Source of the DNA: Guyparkeria halophila
Lineage (GTDB): Bacteria; Pseudomonadota; Gammaproteobacteria; Halothiobacillales; Halothiobacillaceae
Length of the DNA stretch: 64,000 bases
NCBI RefSeq assembly: GCF_034479635.1
Contig: NZ_CP140153.1
Location: 7,501-71,500 of the forward strand
Reading direction: 5' to 3'
Part shown: piece after piece, positions 12,841 to 53,227 of the stretch
Position numbering within the stretch: position 1 is the stretch's first letter
Layout: every line of letters starts with the position of its first letter
Program-made: the position numbers and the translations under genes
Notes under the pieces: generated by a model
Databases searched by the model: none
Told to the model about the DNA's origin: nothing
Seen by the model: only the letters and a program-made list of their open reading frames with translations

Positions 12841-13160
12841 GCGGGCTGGTCGCCTGGCTGATCCAACGCCTCTCCGCGCTCTTTCTCGGCGCGTTCACCG
12901 TCTACGTCCTGGTCTGCCTATCCATGGCCGACGCCTGGTCGCATGCCGCCTGGAGCGGCTGGCTCGCCGCACCGTCCAATGCCGTGACGCTCTGGCTCGC
13001 CGCGCTGGCGTTGCTGCTGCATGCCTGGGTCGGCGGCCGCGACGTGCTGCTCGACTATGTCCATCCGCTCGGCCTGAGGGTCGCCCTGCTGACGGCACTC
13101 GCCGGTTGGCTGCTCGGGTCGGGCATCTGGTTCGGCGCGACACTACTGGAGGTGATGTGA
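12837..13160 (+). CDS. sdhD: succinate dehydrogenase membrane anchor subunit
   Basis: Second membrane anchor of complex II, about 107 aa, three hydrophobic helices. The heme-ligand region is [16 protein letters not shown]. The start chosen is the ATG at 12837, which overlaps the sdhC stop (ATGA); an ATG 15 bp upstream is in frame but lies inside sdhC. The stop overlaps the GTG start of sdhA, so the first three genes are translationally coupled. Confidence 0.9.
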
Positions 13161-14914
13161 GCAAACCACGACAGGTCGACGCGCTGGTGATCGGCGCCGG
13201 AGGCGGCGGGCTACGCGCCGCGCTGCAACTGGCCCGCGGCGAGGCGAGCGTGGCGGTGGTCTCCAAGGTCTTTCCCACCCGCTCGCACACCGTCGCCGCG
13301 CAGGGTGGCGTCAATGCCTCGCTGGCCAATACCCTGCCGGACAACTGGCACTGGCACATGTTCGATACGGTCAAGGGCAGCGACTACCTCGGCGACCAGG
13401 ACGCGATCGAGTACATGTGTCGCGCCGCGCCCAAGGCGGTCCGGGAGCTGGAACACTTCGGCGTGCCGTTCTCGCGCCTGCCCGACGGGCGCATCTACCA
13501 GCGCGCCTTCGGCGGGCAGAGCCAGCACTTCGGCGGCGAACAGGCCGCACGCACCTGTGCCGCCGCCGATCGCACCGGACACGCGATCCTGCACTCGCTC
13601 TACCAGCAGAATCTTGCCGCCGGCACGCACTTCTTCGACGAGCATTTCGCGCTCGACCTGCTCGTCGACGATCAGGGCGCGGTCCTCGGCGCCCAAGTCC
13701 TCGACATCGCCAGCGGCGAGACGACCACCATCGAGGCGCGCACCACCCTGCTCGCCACCGGCGGGGCGGCCCAGATCTACCGCACCAACACCAACGCGCT
13801 GATCAACACCGGCGACGGCATGGCCATGGCCCTGCGTGCCGGCATCCCGCTGCAGGACATGGAGTTCGTCCAGTTCCATCCCACCGGCATCGCCGGCAAG
13901 GGCATGTTGATCACCGAAGGGGTGCGCGGCGAGGGGGGCTACCTGGTCAATGCCGAGGGCGAGCGCTTCATGGAACGCTACGCCCCCCACGCGAAGGATC
14001 TGGCCAGCCGCGACGTAGTCAGCCGGGCGATCGTCACCGAGATCCGCGAGGGCCGCGGCTGCGGCCCGAATCGCGACCACGTCCTGCTCAAGCTCGACCA
14101 TCTCGGCGAGGCGGTTATCCGCGAGCGCCTGCCGGCAATCCGCGAGACGGCGAAGACCTTCGTCAACGTCGATCCGGTCGACGACCCCATTCCGGTGTTC
14201 CCCACCGCGCACTACACCATGGGCGGCATCCCCACCAACCGCCACGGACAGGTGGTCCGCCCGGGCGAAGACGGCAGGGAAGCGCCCGTCGAGGGTCTGT
14301 ATGCCGCGGGCGAATGCGCCTGCGTCTCAGTGCACGGCGCCAACCGGTTGGGCGGCAACTCCCTGCTCGACATCGTGGTCTTCGGTCGGGCGGCGGCGCG
14401 CCACATGCTCGAGCACCTGGCCGCGCACCGCTATCACCGCCCCCTGCCGGAACAGGCCCCTGCCCGCGCGCAGGCCCTGGCCGATGCCATCGAGGAGCGG
14501 GCAACCGGCGAGGCGGTCGCCGCCCTGCGCCGGGAGATCCAGCAGACCATGGAAGACTATGCCGGCGTGTTTCGCCGCCAGGATCAACTGGATCAGGGGC
14601 TCGAGCGCATCCGCCAGCTGCATGCCCGCAGCCGGGAGCTTGCGATCGGCGATCATGGCCGCGTGTTCAACACCGCGCGGATCGAGGCACTGGAACTGGT
14701 CAATCTCGCCGACGTGGCACTGGCGGCGATCACCGCGGCGGCCGCGCGGACGGAAAGCCGCGGCGCGCACTCCCGGGTCGACCACCCCGACCGCGACGAC
14801 GAGCACTGGCTGGTGCACAGCCTGTTCTCGCTCGAGCGCGGCATGCGTTACAAGCCGGTGCGGACCACCCCGCTGACGGTGGACTCATTCCCGCCCAAAC
14901 CGAGGGTCTACTGA
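13157..14914 (+). CDS. sdhA: succinate dehydrogenase flavoprotein subunit
   Basis: Catalytic subunit, oxidises succinate to fumarate using covalent FAD. It has an N-terminal dinucleotide motif [11 protein letters not shown], the FAD-linking His in [11 protein letters not shown], and the substrate-site segments [10 protein letters not shown] and [13 protein letters not shown]. At 585 aa it is a normal length. The GTG start at 13157 overlaps the sdhD stop and has GGAGG 4 bp upstream. The TGA stop (14912-14914) shares its A with an ATG at 14914, where an R2 palindromic element is inserted before sdhB. Confidence 0.96.
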
Positions 14915-15228
14915 TGGGGACCTCGAATAACCTGCTACGCCACCCGACTGCGGCGTCACGTGCGGACTCGGGACATCCGTGTCCCTCGCAAGCGCAAGCG
15001 AGACTTGCGTACGGAATGGCATCCGGGCCATTCCATCGCTCGCTCCTCTCGATTCGCTGGGAGCGCATCGAGGCGCACGTAGTGCGCTCGGAGACTGCAG
15101 GCCATGGATGGCCTGCATCCACCTATCTTTTTGATATGTCTCGTCGCTCGCTGAATGCGAAGCAGGCGCAAGCCAGCGGCTCCTTGCACTCGGGCGGCTC
15201 GCTACGGTTTTTCGAGGTCCCCAGATGA
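14914..15228 (+). CDS. element-encoded open frame bridging sdhA and sdhB
   Basis: An uninterrupted 104-codon frame that begins with the ATG overlapping the sdhA stop (TGATG) and ends with the TGA overlapping the sdhB start (ATGA). The peptide (starts [17 protein letters not shown], ends SLRFFEVPR) matches no family I know. Its ends resemble the peptide read from R2 copy B in another frame relative to the neighbouring genes (TSKNLLRHPIAASRA). It is probably translated only to carry ribosomes across the insertion; a functional product is unproven. Confidence 0.3.
   Translation: MGTSNNLLRHPTAASRADSGHPCPSQAQARLAYGMASGPFHRSLLSIRWERIEAHVVRSETAGHGWPASTYLFDMSRRSLNAKQAQASGSLHSGGSLRFFEVPR
14917..15222 (+). 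repeat. R2 palindromic element, copy A (between sdhA and sdhB)
   Basis: A 306-bp insertion with self-complementary ends: GGGGACCTCGAAnAACC at the left and its complement at the right, with a further imperfect match into GCCnCCCGAnTGC. The interior contains several small hairpins, for example GCAGGCCAT/ATGGCCTGC near 15097 and GGGACA/TGTCCC near 14970. Copy B at 50621-50760 shares both ends and the segment TTTGATATGTCTCGTCGCT, and lacks about 165 bp of the interior. GATG occurs directly before and after the element, suggesting a short target duplication at the former sdhA stop/sdhB start overlap. Confidence 0.8.
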
Positions 15229-15977
15229 GCGAATGGCAGCCGATCCGCGTGTTCAAACGCCCCGGCCCGCGCGACGGGCGGATGCGCTTTTCCCTCTACC
15301 GCTACGATCCGGAAAGCAGCGAGGCGCCCCACCAGCAGGCATACGTCCTCGACGACCTGTCTCCCGACGACATGCTGCTCGACGCGCTGTTACGCCTGCG
15401 CGAGATCGACGAGACACTCGGCTTTCGCCGCTCCTGCGGCGAGGGGGTCTGCGGCTCGGACGCGATGAACATCAACGGGCGCAACGGGCTGGCCTGCATC
15501 ACCCGGCTGGGCGAACTGACCGAGCCGGTGGTCATCCGGCCACTACCGGGCATGCCGGTGATCCGCGACCTGGTCGTCGACATGGGCAACTTCCACCACC
15601 AATACCAGCGGGTCGAACCCTGGCTGCAGGCGGATGCCCCGCCACCGGACCGGGAGCAGGCGCAAACGCCCGACGAGCGCGAGCGTCTCGATGGCCTGAC
15701 CGAATGCATCCTCTGCGGCTGTTGCTCGGCCGCCTGTCCGTCCTACTGGTGGAATCCGGAACGCTTCCTCGGCCCGGCGGCGCTACTGCAGGCCGCGCGC
15801 TTTATTGAGGACAGCCGCGACACGGCCACCGCGGCGCGGCTCGAACAGCTCGACGACGCCTACAAGCTGTTCCGCTGCCACACCATCATGAACTGCAGCG
15901 ACGTCTGCCCGAAGGGGCTGAACCCCACCGAGGCGATCGGCCGTATCCGCCGACGCATGCTGGGCCGACATGTCTGA
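15225..15977 (+). CDS. sdhB: succinate dehydrogenase iron-sulfur subunit
   Basis: Electron-transfer subunit of complex II with three clusters. The N-terminal plant-ferredoxin-like domain has CGEGVCGSDAMNINGRNGLAC ligands for [2Fe-2S] (about residues 68-88). The C-terminal domain has CILCGCCSAACPS and CHTIMNCSDVCPKGLNP for [4Fe-4S] and [3Fe-4S]. At 250 aa it is typical. It is separated from sdhA by R2 copy A, and overlaps sdhE by 8 bp. Confidence 0.96.
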   Translation: MSEWQPIRVFKRPGPRDGRMRFSLYRYDPESSEAPHQQAYVLDDLSPDDMLLDALLRLREIDETLGFRRSCGEGVCGSDAMNINGRNGLACITRLGELTEPVVIRPLPGMPVIRDLVVDMGNFHHQYQRVEPWLQADAPPPDREQAQTPDERERLDGLTECILCGCCSAACPSYWWNPERFLGPAALLQAARFIEDSRDTATAARLEQLDDAYKLFRCHTIMNCSDVCPKGLNPTEAIGRIRRRMLGRHV

Positions 15978-18149: not shown

Positions 18150-18395
18150 CCGCCGTGCATGGCGTGCGAGTCGATTTTCTTGCTTGTCCAAGAAAACCGA
18201 CGAAAAGAAGACACCCCGATGCATTGGCCCTTCGGGCCTGATCGACTCGGATTGCATCCGAGCCGATCAGCCTCGCGAACGAGGGGTTGCGGACGGGTCG
18301 GTTCGACGCGACCTCCTGTCGCGGCGAACCTCGGGCTCGCGTCCATGCGAGCCCGACCCTGCAATCCCTCGCTCGCGAGGCAAAGCATAAGGGGA
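18150..18395 (-). repeat. R3 structured repeat, copy a
   Basis: Reverse-oriented copy. On the plus strand: hairpin TTTTCTTGCTTGTCCAAGAAAA (near 18175-18196), GGCCCTTCGGGCC, stem arm CCTCGCGAACGAGGGGTTGC (18271-18290) pairing with 18361-18380. Between the arms is a junction GGGTCGG/CCGACCC enclosing two hairpins (18300-18330 and 18333-18354). The pairing pattern is the same as copies b and c although much of the sequence differs. Confidence 0.75.
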
Positions 18396-18489: not shown

Positions 18490-18765
18490 TCCCCTTGCGT
18501 CCTGCCTCGCGGCCGGTGGATGGCTCGGGGTCGGAGCGACAGGGACGTCGCTCCGAGGCTCGCCGTGACAGGAGGTCACGTCGAGCCGGCCCCGAAAACA
18601 GCCGCCGGTCGCGAGGCTTCGAGTCCGGACACCGTCCGGGCTCGAAGGCCCGCAGGGCCAGGACGCCGGGGTGCCCTTCTTTTCGCCCCTTTTCTTGGGC
18701 AAGCAAGAAAAGGGGCTCGCGCGCCGAGCACGGTGGCTCAAACAGAACGTATCCGAGTCTCGGGC
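18490..18765 (+). repeat. R3 structured repeat, copy b
   Basis: Long stem CCTCGCGGCCGGTGG (18505-18519) with 18602-18616; junction GGGGTCGG (18527-18534) with 18586-18593, enclosing hairpin GGAGCGAC/GTCGCTCC and hairpin GCTCG..CGTGAC/GTCACG..CGAGC. Then hairpin CTTCGAG..CCGGAC with complement (18617-18647), and a final CCCCTTTTCTTG/CAAGAAAAGGGG hairpin (18687-18716). Confidence 0.78.
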
Positions 18766-49882: not shown

Positions 49883-49887
49883 TCCCC

Positions 49888-50619
49888 ATGTCCTCATCGA
49901 AAAGTCCGCAAAACGACAGCCAGCCGATCCTGACCGTCGAGGGCGTGACGCAGACCGTGCGCACGCCCGAACCGCTCACCATTGTGCACGAGGCCCACCT
50001 GCAAATCTTCCCCGGCGAGGCCGTCGCGCTGGTGGGGCCGTCGGGGGCGGGCAAGTCGACGCTACTGGCCCTGATGGCCGGTCTGGACACGCCCAGCGCC
50101 GGGCGAATCCGGCTGGCGGGCGAGTCGCTGGAAGACCTGGACGAGGACGGCCGCGCCGCAGTCCGCGCCGGGCGGGTGGGCTTCGTGTTCCAGTCCTTCC
50201 AGCTGATCGACGGACTCAACGCGCTGGAGAACGTCGCCCTGCCGCTGGAACTGGCCGGCGAACGTCGCGCCGAGGCACGGGCCCGCGAGGCACTGGTCGA
50301 GGTCGGGCTGGGCGAGCGGATGACCCACCTGCCCCGCCAGCTCTCCGGCGGCGAGCAGCAGCGGGTGGCGCTGGCGCGCGCCTTCGTGATCGAGCCGGAC
50401 ATCCTGTTCGCCGACGAGCCCACCGGTTCGCTGGATACCACCACCGGCGAGCACGTCATCGATCTGCTCTTCCGCCTGCGCGAACGCCATCACACCACGC
50501 TGGTGCTGGTGACCCACGACCCGGCACTTGCCGCCCGCTGCGATCGGGGCTTCGAGGTCAATGCCGGCCGGGTGAGCGACTGGCAGCCGGATCCGGACGA
50601 ACTGCGGGGTGACACATGA
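49888..50619 (+). CDS. ybbA: ABC transporter ATP-binding protein YbbA
   Basis: 243-aa ATPase of the LolD/MacB-like group. Walker [14 protein letters not shown]-loop [15 protein letters not shown], signature [15 protein letters not shown], Walker [13 protein letters not shown] and switch VTHD. Works with the FtsX-type permease that follows. Its TGA stop (50617-50619) overlaps an ATG at 50616, where R2 copy B is inserted. Confidence 0.93.
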
Positions 50620-50765
50620 CGACACCTCGAAAAACCTGCTGCGCCACCCGATTGCTGCGTCGCGTGCTCGCTCACTCCTCGCCTATCGGTTTGATATGTC
50701 TCGTCGCTCGCTCCGCGGCTCCTTGCACTCGGGCGACTCACGACGGTTTTGCGAGGTGTCTATGA
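50616..50765 (+). CDS. element-encoded open frame bridging ybbA and ybbP
   Basis: A 49-codon frame (starts [16 protein letters not shown]) that begins with the ATG of the ybbA stop overlap and ends with the TGA overlapping the ybbP ATG. A second frame, from a GTG at 50609, also stays open through the element and fuses in frame to ybbP. No known family; likely a coupling leader, not a functional protein. Confidence 0.3.
   Translation: MTTPRKTCCATRLLRRVLAHSSPIGLICLVARSAAPCTRATHDGFARCL
50621..50760 (+). repeat. R2 palindromic element, copy B (between ybbA and ybbP)
   Basis: A 140-bp insertion with ends GACACCTCGnAAAACC and its complement, plus an inner match GCCACCCGATTGC-type against GCACTCGGGCGAC. 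It shares CTGCGCCACCCGA, TTTGATATGTCTCGTCGCT and CGGCTCCTTGCACTCGGGCG with copy A. The sequence ATGAC occurs immediately before (50616-50620) and after (50762-50766), consistent with a 5-bp target duplication at an ATGA overlap. Confidence 0.8.
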
Positions 50766-53227
50766 CGGGCAAAACGATGCGCAACGCCCGGCTGGCCTGG
50801 CAGGGGCTGGTCCGCGAGGTGCAGAGCGGGCTGCTCACGCCGATGCTGCTCGCCCTGCTGGTGGCGGTGTCGGCGGTAACGGCCGTGGGTTTCTTCGTCG
50901 ATCGCGTCGACGGGGCGATGCGCGCACAGGCCGCCCAGTTCCTCGCCGCCGATGCGCGGGTGGAATCGCCCGATCCGCTCGACGAGTGGGCCGCCGCGGC
51001 GGCGGAGCTGGGACTGACCACTAGCCGGCACGTCACCTTTCCGACCGTGGTGCTCGCGGGAGAGCAGAGCCAGCTGGTCGGCCTCAAGGCGGTCGACGAC
51101 GCCTACCCATTGCGCGGCGACCTGCGCATCGACGACGGCGAGGCAGTGACCACGGTCGAACACGGTCCGCCGCCCGGGCAGGCCTGGCTCGCCCGACGGG
51201 CGCTGCTATCGCTGGACACGGCGATCGGTGAATCCATCGCGATCGGTCAGACGACGCTCGAGATCGCCGCCGTGCTCGAACGCGAGCCGGACGTGGGCAA
51301 TATCTTCGCCCAGGCCGCCCCGCGGCTGATGATCCACCGCGACGACCTGGCCGCCACCGGGCTGGTGACCGATACCAGCCGCGTGGAACATGCCCTGCTG
51401 CTGGCGAGCGATGCGGGAGATCGTGATGCCCGACTGGAGGCGTTTGCCAACCGGCTGCCCGATCGGCTGCGACTCGAGCGCCCCGAATCGAGCCAGCCGG
51501 CCTTCGAGACCGCCTTCGACCGGGCCGCCCGCTTTCTCGGTCTCGCCTCGGTGGTCGCTGTACTGCTGGCAGGCGCCGCTCTGGTAATCGCCGCGCGCCA
51601 CTACAACCGCGTCCAGCAGGGGGCGGCGGCCCTGATGCGCGCACTGGGCGCTTCATCCCGCCAGATCGGGTCAATCTACCGCTGGCGCCTGCTGATGCTC
51701 GCACTGCTGGCGGCCGTCCCGGGCATCGCCATCGGGGCGATGACGCAACTGCTGCTCGCCGATCTCATGGCGCAGGTACTGGAGGTCGACCTACCGCCGC
51801 CCGGCCTGACGCCGGTGGCGCTGGGGCTGGCCGTCGCCCTGGTCGCCCTGTTCGGCTTTGCCCTGCCGAGCCTGGTGCAGCTCAAGCACACCCCACCGCT
51901 GCGCGTACTGGTCGAGCACGTGGTCGCGCCCAGTCCCGCCGCGACCCTGCTGTTCGGTGCCGGCATTGGGGCGATCACGCTGCTGGTCTGGTTCCAGGCC
52001 CGCGATGCCGCCCTGACGCTGTGGGTGATCGTCGGGCTGGGGGCGAGCCTGCTGGTGTTCCTGGCGGTGGCCTGGCTCTTGGTCACGCTGCTGCGCCACT
52101 GGCCGGCCCGGGGCGTGGCCCGTTTCGGCCTGGCGCGCATGGCCCGCACCCGCTGGGTCTCGTCGACGCAGATCGCCGCCCTGGCGCTGGGCGTGACCGC
52201 CGTGCTGCTGCTCTCGGTGGTCCGTTCGGATCTGATCAATGCCTGGGAGCGCCAGATCCCGGCCGATGCGCCCAACATCTTCGCCATCAACATCCAGCCG
52301 GAACAGGTGGACGGCATGCGTGCCTTCCTCGATCGCGCCGGGATCGAGAACGCGGGCTTCTACCCGATGGTGCGCGCCCGCTGGACGCAGATGGACAGCG
52401 CCCCGGTGGACAAGGCGGACTACGAGGGACGCGCCCACCGGCTGGCTACCCGGGAGTTCAATCTCTCGGTGGGGGCGGAGGCCGCCGCGCACAACCGCGT
52501 CGTCGCCGGCGATCTGGGTGAGGAAGGCTTCTCGGTCGAGGAAGGCATCGCCGAGACCCTCGGCTGGTCGCTGGGCGATCAGCTGACCTTTACCGTCGAC
52601 GGGCGCGAGGTCAGCGGCGCGATCACTTCGCTGCGCACGGTCGACTGGGATTCGATGCGGCCGAACTTCTTCGTCATCGCCAGCCCGTCACTGATGGACG
52701 GGGTGGTCGCGCAGTACATCACCAGCTTTCATTTCCCCGACGGGGCGCCGCAGACGCAGGTCGCCCTGCTGCGCGAGTTCCCGACGGTGACGCTGTTCGA
52801 CGTCTCGCGGATTCTCGACGAGGTGCGCACGCTGATCGACCGGGCCAGCCAGGCCGTGGAGTACGTCTTCGCCTTCACGCTGGCCGCGGGATTGGTGGTG
52901 CTGCTGGCCGCCTTCGGCGCGAGCGAGCGCCAGCGCATTCATGACGCCGCCGTGCTGCGGGTGATGGGCGCGAGCCGCGGCAAGGTGATCGCCGCGCTCT
53001 GGATCGAATTCCTCGCTCTGGGGCTACTGGTGGGGCTGTTGGCGGCCGTCGCCGCCATGGCCGTCGGTGCGACCCTGTCTGCGCGGGTCTTCGACCTGCC
53101 GCTGGCGTTCAACCCGCGGCTTTTGCTCTGGGGACTGGGCGCCGGCCTGCTGCTGGCCGCGCTGGTCACGCCGCTGCTGGGACGGCGCATGACGCGCGTA
53201 CCGCCGGCGCGCGCACTGCAACGCTGA
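50762..53227 (+). CDS. ybbP: FtsX-like ABC transporter permease YbbP
   Basis: 821 aa with about ten membrane helices: one N-terminal (MLLALLVAVSAVTAVGFFVD), FtsX-type permease blocks near 260-400 and 760-820, and central helices between. Large periplasmic domains with VRSDLINAWERQIPADAPNIFAINI. Forms a putative transporter with YbbA; its substrate is unknown. The true start is taken as ATG 50762 (MTGKTMRNARLAW), overlapping the TGA of the element frame; the in-frame extension upstream is encoded by R2 copy B. Confidence 0.88.
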   Translation: MTGKTMRNARLAWQGLVREVQSGLLTPMLLALLVAVSAVTAVGFFVDRVDGAMRAQAAQFLAADARVESPDPLDEWAAAAAELGLTTSRHVTFPTVVLAGEQSQLVGLKAVDDAYPLRGDLRIDDGEAVTTVEHGPPPGQAWLARRALLSLDTAIGESIAIGQTTLEIAAVLEREPDVGNIFAQAAPRLMIHRDDLAATGLVTDTSRVEHALLLASDAGDRDARLEAFANRLPDRLRLERPESSQPAFETAFDRAARFLGLASVVAVLLAGAALVIAARHYNRVQQGAAALMRALGASSRQIGSIYRWRLLMLALLAAVPGIAIGAMTQLLLADLMAQVLEVDLPPPGLTPVALGLAVALVALFGFALPSLVQLKHTPPLRVLVEHVVAPSPAATLLFGAGIGAITLLVWFQARDAALTLWVIVGLGASLLVFLAVAWLLVTLLRHWPARGVARFGLARMARTRWVSSTQIAALALGVTAVLLLSVVRSDLINAWERQIPADAPNIFAINIQPEQVDGMRAFLDRAGIENAGFYPMVRARWTQMDSAPVDKADYEGRAHRLATREFNLSVGAEAAAHNRVVAGDLGEEGFSVEEGIAETLGWSLGDQLTFTVDGREVSGAITSLRTVDWDSMRPNFFVIASPSLMDGVVAQYITSFHFPDGAPQTQVALLREFPTVTLFDVSRILDEVRTLIDRASQAVEYVFAFTLAAGLVVLLAAFGASERQRIHDAAVLRVMGASRGKVIAALWIEFLALGLLVGLLAAVAAMAVGATLSARVFDLPLAFNPRLLLWGLGAGLLLAALVTPLLGRRMTRVPPARALQR

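Follow-up and report, generated by a model that had tools for sequence, protein, structure and literature searches.

Why should a palindrome stand exactly where one gene of an operon stops and the next one starts, and why twice within 64 kb? The question is raised by a 64,000-nucleotide stretch of the genome of Guyparkeria halophila (the window, meaning the whole stretch that was analysed), in which a preliminary description had placed one such palindrome between sdhA and sdhB and another between ybbA and ybbP. Both copies are real and the observation is confirmed. They have the exact 19-mer TTTGATATGTCTCGTCGCT in common, which did not recur in any of 100 dinucleotide shuffles, and they differ by internal segments; they are the long and the short form of one element (Table 1). 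The preliminary description had also held that removal of the element restores tight overlaps. This proved correct: excision in silico leaves the overlap TGATG at sdhA/sdhB and ATGA at ybbA/ybbP, and relatives have the matching empty sites.

Table 1. Parts of the two palindrome copies and their neighbouring genes, in positions of the window
Feature	Position	Strand	Remark
MITE copy 1, long form, 307 bp	14916..15222	+	between sdhA and sdhB
MITE copy 2, short form, 142 bp	50620..50761	+	between ybbA and ybbP
Copy 1, left target duplication TGAT	14912..14915	+	holds sdhA stop TGA 14912-14914; empty site CTACTGATGAGCG in G004 and G009
Copy 1, left terminal arm GGGGACCTCGAATAACC	14916..14932	+	pairs with 15206-15222, one mismatch
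Copy 1, conserved apical core TTTGATATGTCTCGTCGCT	15130..15148	+	core motif recurs in many Proteobacteria
Copy 1, right terminal arm GGTTTTTCGAGGTCCCC	15206..15222	+	GAGG 15214-15217, 7 nt before sdhB ATG
Copy 1, right target duplication AGAT	15223..15226	+	one change from TGAT; sdhB ATG is 15225-15227
Copy 2, left target duplication ATGA	50616..50619	+	holds ybbA stop TGA 50617-50619
Copy 2, conserved apical core	50690..50708	+	identical to 15130-15148
Copy 2, right terminal arm GGTTTTGCGAGGTGTCT	50745..50761	+	GAGG 50753-50756, 5 nt before ybbP ATG
Copy 2, right target duplication ATGA	50762..50765	+	holds ybbP start codon
sdhA, succinate dehydrogenase flavoprotein subunit	13157..14914	+	TIGR01816 above curated cut-off (NCBIfam)
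sdhB, succinate dehydrogenase iron-sulfur subunit	15225..15977	+	NF004616 and TIGR00384 above curated cut-off
ybbA, ABC transporter ATP-binding protein	49885..50619	+	putative start; best match YbbA NF007879, E=2.8e-78, below curated cut-off
ybbP, ABC transporter permease	50762..53227	+	best match YbbP model NF041854, E=1.9e-143, below curated cut-off

The direct repeats that flank both copies are indeed a target duplication, although not the GATG and ATGAC first given. As read from the flanks, the duplication is 4 bp long, TGAT at sdhA/sdhB, where the right copy is now AGAT, and ATGA at ybbA/ybbP. Relatives lacking the element confirm it: five of the ten own-genome sites were searched, and an empty allele exists for every one of them. 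The empty sdhA/sdhB site reads CTACTGATGAGCG in G004 and G009. G006 and G008 carry nine additional bases there; they lie 3' of the start codon between GGG and CCC (L157 and L156, respectively), keep the frame and are possibly the deletion scar of an earlier copy. At ybbA/ybbP the empty allele is ATGA in G002, G003 and G008 and TAATG in G001 and G004. It is ATGA at the start of an alcohol dehydrogenase gene (three genomes), GTGATG at an RND pump junction (three genomes) and a short stop/start gap at a junction that we take to be proA/nadD, from the sequence and an Aldedh match (five genomes). Ahead of the left duplication at the alcohol dehydrogenase, the host has GGAAGGAG, and the empty alleles have a purine-rich sequence of the AGGAG type at the corresponding position; the element has thus split a native Shine-Dalgarno (SD) sequence from its start codon. 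Identical 4-bp flanks are found at 9 of 57 copies in the own genus (ATGA five times, TGAT twice at one site, CTAA and TGCC once each) and at 30 of 48 in a sister genus. The latter are varied (TAAC, TAGT, CAGG, TCCG, GCCT, ATGA, AAAT and others), which means that the transposase can do without a stop/start overlap.

The palindrome is apparently a non-autonomous MITE (miniature inverted-repeat transposable element) with ends of the IS5 family, and it is apparently stranded in the own genus. Its 17-bp ends match an insertion sequence (IS) of that family in the sister genus. In the 1.28-kb IS of genome G012 (L129, L132) the left repeat equals the consensus exactly and the right one has a single mismatch; the IS encodes an IS5-family transposase (NF033581, PF01609) with a frame of 352 codons, for which an element of 142 or 307 bp is too short. 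The 4-bp duplication is absent at both copies of this IS; they are only two, and recombination or decay may have altered them. At E 1e-30 the transposase has relatives in 3 of 27 genomes of the family Halothiobacillaceae and in none of the 11 genomes of the own genus, some of these genomes being incomplete. The element itself is dispersed over 21 of the 27 family genomes, in all four genera. Of 122 copies placed there, one self-match omitted, 109 have both ends in reach and form 86 site clusters; partial copies and weak matches, several of them in G005, G006 and G008, are excluded from these counts. Both arms are exactly GGGCACCTCGAAAAACC and GGTTTTTCGAGGTGCCC in 13 of 48 sister-genus copies, and at least one is in 30 of 48; in the own genus both are exact in none of 57.

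One species may have the long form where another has the short form at the orthologous site (short versus long: L026 versus L109 and L124; L053 versus L099), which suggests internal deletion or exchange between copies. At one orthologous junction a single species has the element flipped (L049 versus L021 and L123), which suggests an inversion or an independent insertion. There are also further short elements with similar ends and other interiors (L131, L140, L141, L144, L146); several MITE subfamilies may share one type of transposase.

Where, then, do the copies lie? The preliminary description knew two, yet the host genome, a single contig of 2.45 Mb, has ten, all beside a start codon. They lie at sdhA/sdhB; at ybbA/ybbP; between a gene without match and the alcohol dehydrogenase; between an RND adaptor and a CusA-type pump; at a gene without match (moxR-like by eye); at biotin carboxylase/prmA; at MbnB-type/DUF2063; between an aldehyde-dehydrogenase-type gene (presumably proA) and nadD; between ruvB and a thioesterase (presumably ybgC); and between an SRP54-type gene and an ABC gene (presumably ftsY and ftsE). 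Eight of the starts are ATG codons no more than 8 nt from the element end. At the DUF2063 and ybgC copies the sole nearby in-frame start is apparently a TTG inside the arm. In L011 (1480-1510) and its orthologues the ybgC-like frame seems to begin at the arm TTG, so that the element would encode the first codons of that gene.

The own-genus sample comprises 57 copies at 37 sites in 11 genomes; the ftsY/ftsE copy L012 was included manually and counts together with L038 as a single site. By an automated caller, 20 of the 37 are co-directional stop/start junctions, as compared to 1.4% of 3000 insertions simulated into the window and also 1.4% of the 353 tolerated ones. Reading by hand raises the count to 25 of 37. 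The five junctions so added (sites of L007, L060, L048, L068 and L073, the upstream stop of L073 being seen by eye only) have downstream frames open for 205-399 codons. Also by hand reading, a start codon is abutted at 31 of the 37 sites; the remaining six (11, 18, 25, 28, 36 and 37) have no abutting start, and some of them abut a stop. By the same automated caller, the sister genus has 7 junctions among 45 sites versus 0.8% (3000 simulated) or 0.3% (941 tolerated), and most of its other sites are ordinary intergenic DNA. Junction enrichment is thus seen in both genera; it is the rule only in the own one. Only a joint test for stop plus start was kept for these counts. A looser test for any in-frame start near the end was discarded as uninformative, since simulated insertions passed it at 27-37% in the own genus, and in a wider set at 467 of 1500 (31%) versus 27 of 84 observed.

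The idea of a mobile palindrome at junctions therefore stands, whereas the clause that it targets or tolerates only such sites goes too far, in view of the sister genus and of the six own-genus sites just mentioned. The data agree better with a target bias combined with selective survival than with strict targeting. The bias must contribute, because the less-diverged sister-genus copies are enriched at junctions, too.

Outside the family the arms vary by lineage while the apical core recurs (L174-L292). The core CTATCNNNNNGATATGTCTCGTCG occurs in at least 119 stretches from Accumulibacter, Gallionella, Denitromonas, Tepidiphilus, Pseudomonas, Magnetococcales and others, and eight genomes picked for having it contain 1-22 matches each. 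Such recurrence with differing arms is beyond what simple MITE logic requires, and the apical core may serve a separate function. From 109 placed copies 84 were used, the rest having weak arm pairing or belonging to Halothiobacillaceae. They abut a stop codon in 49 of 84 cases versus 58 of 1500 simulated and 11 of 166 tolerated insertions, and they lie at stop/start junctions in 16 of 84 versus 18 of 1500 and 1 of 166, respectively; TGA or TCA is frequent in their flanks. A second, whole-genome set, which overlaps the first and includes duplicate loci, gave 10 junctions in 33. Gallionellaceae-type copies (L187, L236, L177) repeat the pattern of TGAT/TAAT overlaps, and their arm contains AGAGG. 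A Pseudomonas copy at one junction, presumably coaE/yacG, recurs in a few species, but of 99 sampled genomes no more than 7 gave any match. A search of plasmids yielded one partial match, in a Nitrosomonas plasmid.

The arms resemble a ribosome-binding site. Either consensus arm, read outward, ends in CGAGGTGCCC, and GAGG then precedes the ATG of the duplication, the spacing to the start being 5-7 nt at 15 of the 22 sites for which it was determined. In the 31 hand-assigned sites the start-side arm pairs more strongly with the anti-SD sequence at 18, more weakly at 4 and equally at 9 (Wilcoxon P=0.0007); the means are -6.6 kcal/mol for the start-side and -5.2 kcal/mol for the far arm. In other Proteobacteria, copies with an SD arm lie at junctions in 6 of 13 cases versus 11 of 71 without (P=0.02), a difference in the expected direction, yet weak; an earlier sorting by regular expression, which mis-sorted several arms, had given 7 of 19 versus 7 of 65 (P=0.013). 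Two findings speak against a part of the arm SD in retention: the far arm has the better SD at 4 of these 31 sites, and the 11 of 71 just cited are junctions in families without an outward SD at their tips. The start-side bias, taken with the difference between the two genera, leads us to infer that copies at junctions are retained because the arm serves as the SD sequence of the downstream gene.

The IS5-type ends, the 4-bp duplication, the empty alleles at five sites, the junction enrichment and the SD bias are observations. On balance we lean towards an account in which a MITE moved by IS5 spares gene overlaps by means of its 4-bp duplication, offers its arm as a replacement SD sequence and is kept at junctions. 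An IS5-family transposase would have mobilised the palindrome in the past and made the duplication. Where the 4-bp target coincides with the overlap (ATGA) or spans it (TGAT, CTAA), the left duplication completes the upstream stop and the right one the downstream start. Neither protein is altered, as the empty sites at the examined loci show. The native ribosome-binding site is displaced by 142-309 nt, and the outward arm, with CGAGGTGCCC immediately before ATG, would provide an SD sequence at usable spacing; the element being palindromic, it would do so in both orientations. Copies at junctions would thereby become the ribosome-binding site of the downstream gene and be kept, and own-genus copies elsewhere would decay, no such transposase having been found there.

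The strongest competitor to this account invokes only target preference and purifying selection, the SD likeness of the arm being coincidental to the transposase binding site. The IS5-type transposase would favour short targets that are A+T-rich or stop-like, such as TNA, CTNAG or ATGA, target motifs of IS5 subgroups. In GC-rich, gene-dense genomes such targets would fall at overlaps, where the duplication renders the insertion harmless. The frequent abutment of stops and the TGA/TCA flanks in the wide Proteobacteria set are in line with this proposal, as is the junction enrichment in the sister genus, and MITEPsy1, an element of suspected IS5 origin, is described with the 4-nt targets CTAG or YTAA (PMC3189936). 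The proposal is, however, at odds with the diversity of the identical flanks in the sister genus, TCCG, CAGG and GCCT among them, and with the low share of junctions among random tolerated insertions in the own genus. Nor does it predict a stronger SD on the start-side arm. As a complete explanation we consider it unlikely, though worth serious attention.

What else might the palindrome do at a junction? The ten own-genome copies have predicted fold energies of -46.7 to -158.1 kcal/mol. In the own genus the arms have drifted by about 3.6 changes per 17-nt arm, as compared to about 1.2 in the sister genus, and in mean conservation they are the lowest of four segments compared (0.80, 33 sites), whereas in the sister genus they are the highest (0.93, 31 sites). 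Nevertheless, own-genus arms pair with their own partner at -21.1 kcal/mol versus -15.4 kcal/mol with the arms of other sites, a value not reached in any of 5000 permutations. In the sister genus the excess is small (-25.5 versus -24.5 kcal/mol; again 0 of 5000 as low). The arm tips drift and yet remain complementary; the stem has the stop at its 5' base, whereas the SD and the start lie at its 3' base. Such covariation could also arise without selection, from common descent or from template switching that repairs the palindrome, and compensated arm changes are also found at a non-junction site of the own genus (L054/L085).

A ribosome that terminates at the upstream stop could melt the stem and thereby expose the SD sequence, and the element would then be a portable hairpin for translational coupling. 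This was modelled by forcing the 11 nt 3' of the stop to be single-stranded and predicting the cost of opening the SD at 22 sites; 24 had been selected among the 31, and L052 and L073 were set aside because a motif or stop was missing. The predicted mean cost falls from 12.0 to 5.5 kcal/mol at the 16 sites whose stop is no more than 6 nt away, and from 16.7 to 1.2 kcal/mol at sdhA/sdhB; it barely moves, from 11.7 to 11.3 kcal/mol, at the six sites with a more distant stop. No release of the SD is predicted at ybbA/ybbP (8.2 to 8.1 kcal/mol), at L026 (8.7 to 8.7 kcal/mol) or where the stop is 10-106 nt away. The modelled geometry thus fits coupling at many junctions, not at all of them, and we infer from it that the hairpin may couple translation across the junction. 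The farthest-reaching version would see widespread mobile cassettes of operon junctions that preserve the overlap, bring their own SD in either orientation, rebuild coupling by their fold, undergo compensatory evolution and become indispensable to the host. We offer it tentatively, as a rather doubtful generalisation.

Alternatively, the hairpin could be an element of mRNA processing, stability or attenuation, i.e., an RNase site or a terminator, that tunes the downstream versus the upstream gene. ERIC and NEMIS repeats are said to act as mRNA processing or stability elements, and the stable predicted fold as well as the position inside operons would suit such a role. Yet no terminator-like site lies at the element ends (there is a six-pair stem inside copy 1, and the sole match for copy 2 is in ybbP), scans for terminators and promoters gave nothing convincing, and the link to start codons and the SD bias would be left unexplained, which makes this function improbable. 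A non-mobile, inherited cis-regulatory RNA of operons, to which sites common to several species (ruvB/ybgC in five genomes) and the near-invariant core parts might point, is scarcely credible in view of the empty sites with target duplication, the ends in common with an IS, the unrelated host genes, the 25 of 37 own-genus clusters confined to a single species and the lack of any Rfam match to the element at gathering score. A sub-threshold hit to the RNA ROSE_3 (E=0.48) was treated as chance. Elsewhere in the window, two TwoAYGGAY RNA motifs (RF01731) do exceed the gathering score, at 18267-18389 (minus strand) and 18495-18622 (plus strand), about 100 nt apart.

Gene-dense operons leave scant room for insertions. 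The element illustrates a way in, by a duplication equal to the overlap and an end usable as ribosome-binding site. Should the coupling hairpin be true, transposons could retune operon genes such as sdhA and sdhB while leaving both genes intact. The genomes hold natural pairs of filled and empty sites.

Small intergenic palindromic repeats such as Correia, NEMIS, ERIC, RUP and BOX are familiar and can alter the expression of their neighbours. To our knowledge, none of them has been described on start/stop overlaps with an arm acting as SD sequence. The full-length relative among the IS5-family insertion sequences shares its ends with the present element up to one base and differs from it in being long enough for a transposase. 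By title and abstract, a literature search that excluded subscription papers found no description of this element or of MITEs supplying SD sequences at stop/start overlaps. The nearest described element found is MITEPsy1 of Pseudomonas syringae, a short MITE of suspected IS5 origin with 18-nt terminal repeats and a 4-nt target duplication (CTAG/YTAA), for which transposition has been shown and similar sequences are reported in other genera (PMC3189936). It measures 100 nt and has a different terminal repeat; it is likened here by description, and the passages considered mention neither stop/start junctions nor a supplied Shine-Dalgarno sequence (PMC3189936). As to coupling itself, Huber et al. 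report that termination on the upstream gene promotes downstream initiation, that among overlaps those of 4 and 1 nt occur most often and that, in the pairs tested, coupling is almost abolished by about 20 nt between the genes (PMC10666635). In contrast to such -4 and -1 overlaps, 142-309 nt are here inserted between the genes, so that the insertion must either supply a new SD sequence or bridge the gap by its hairpin.
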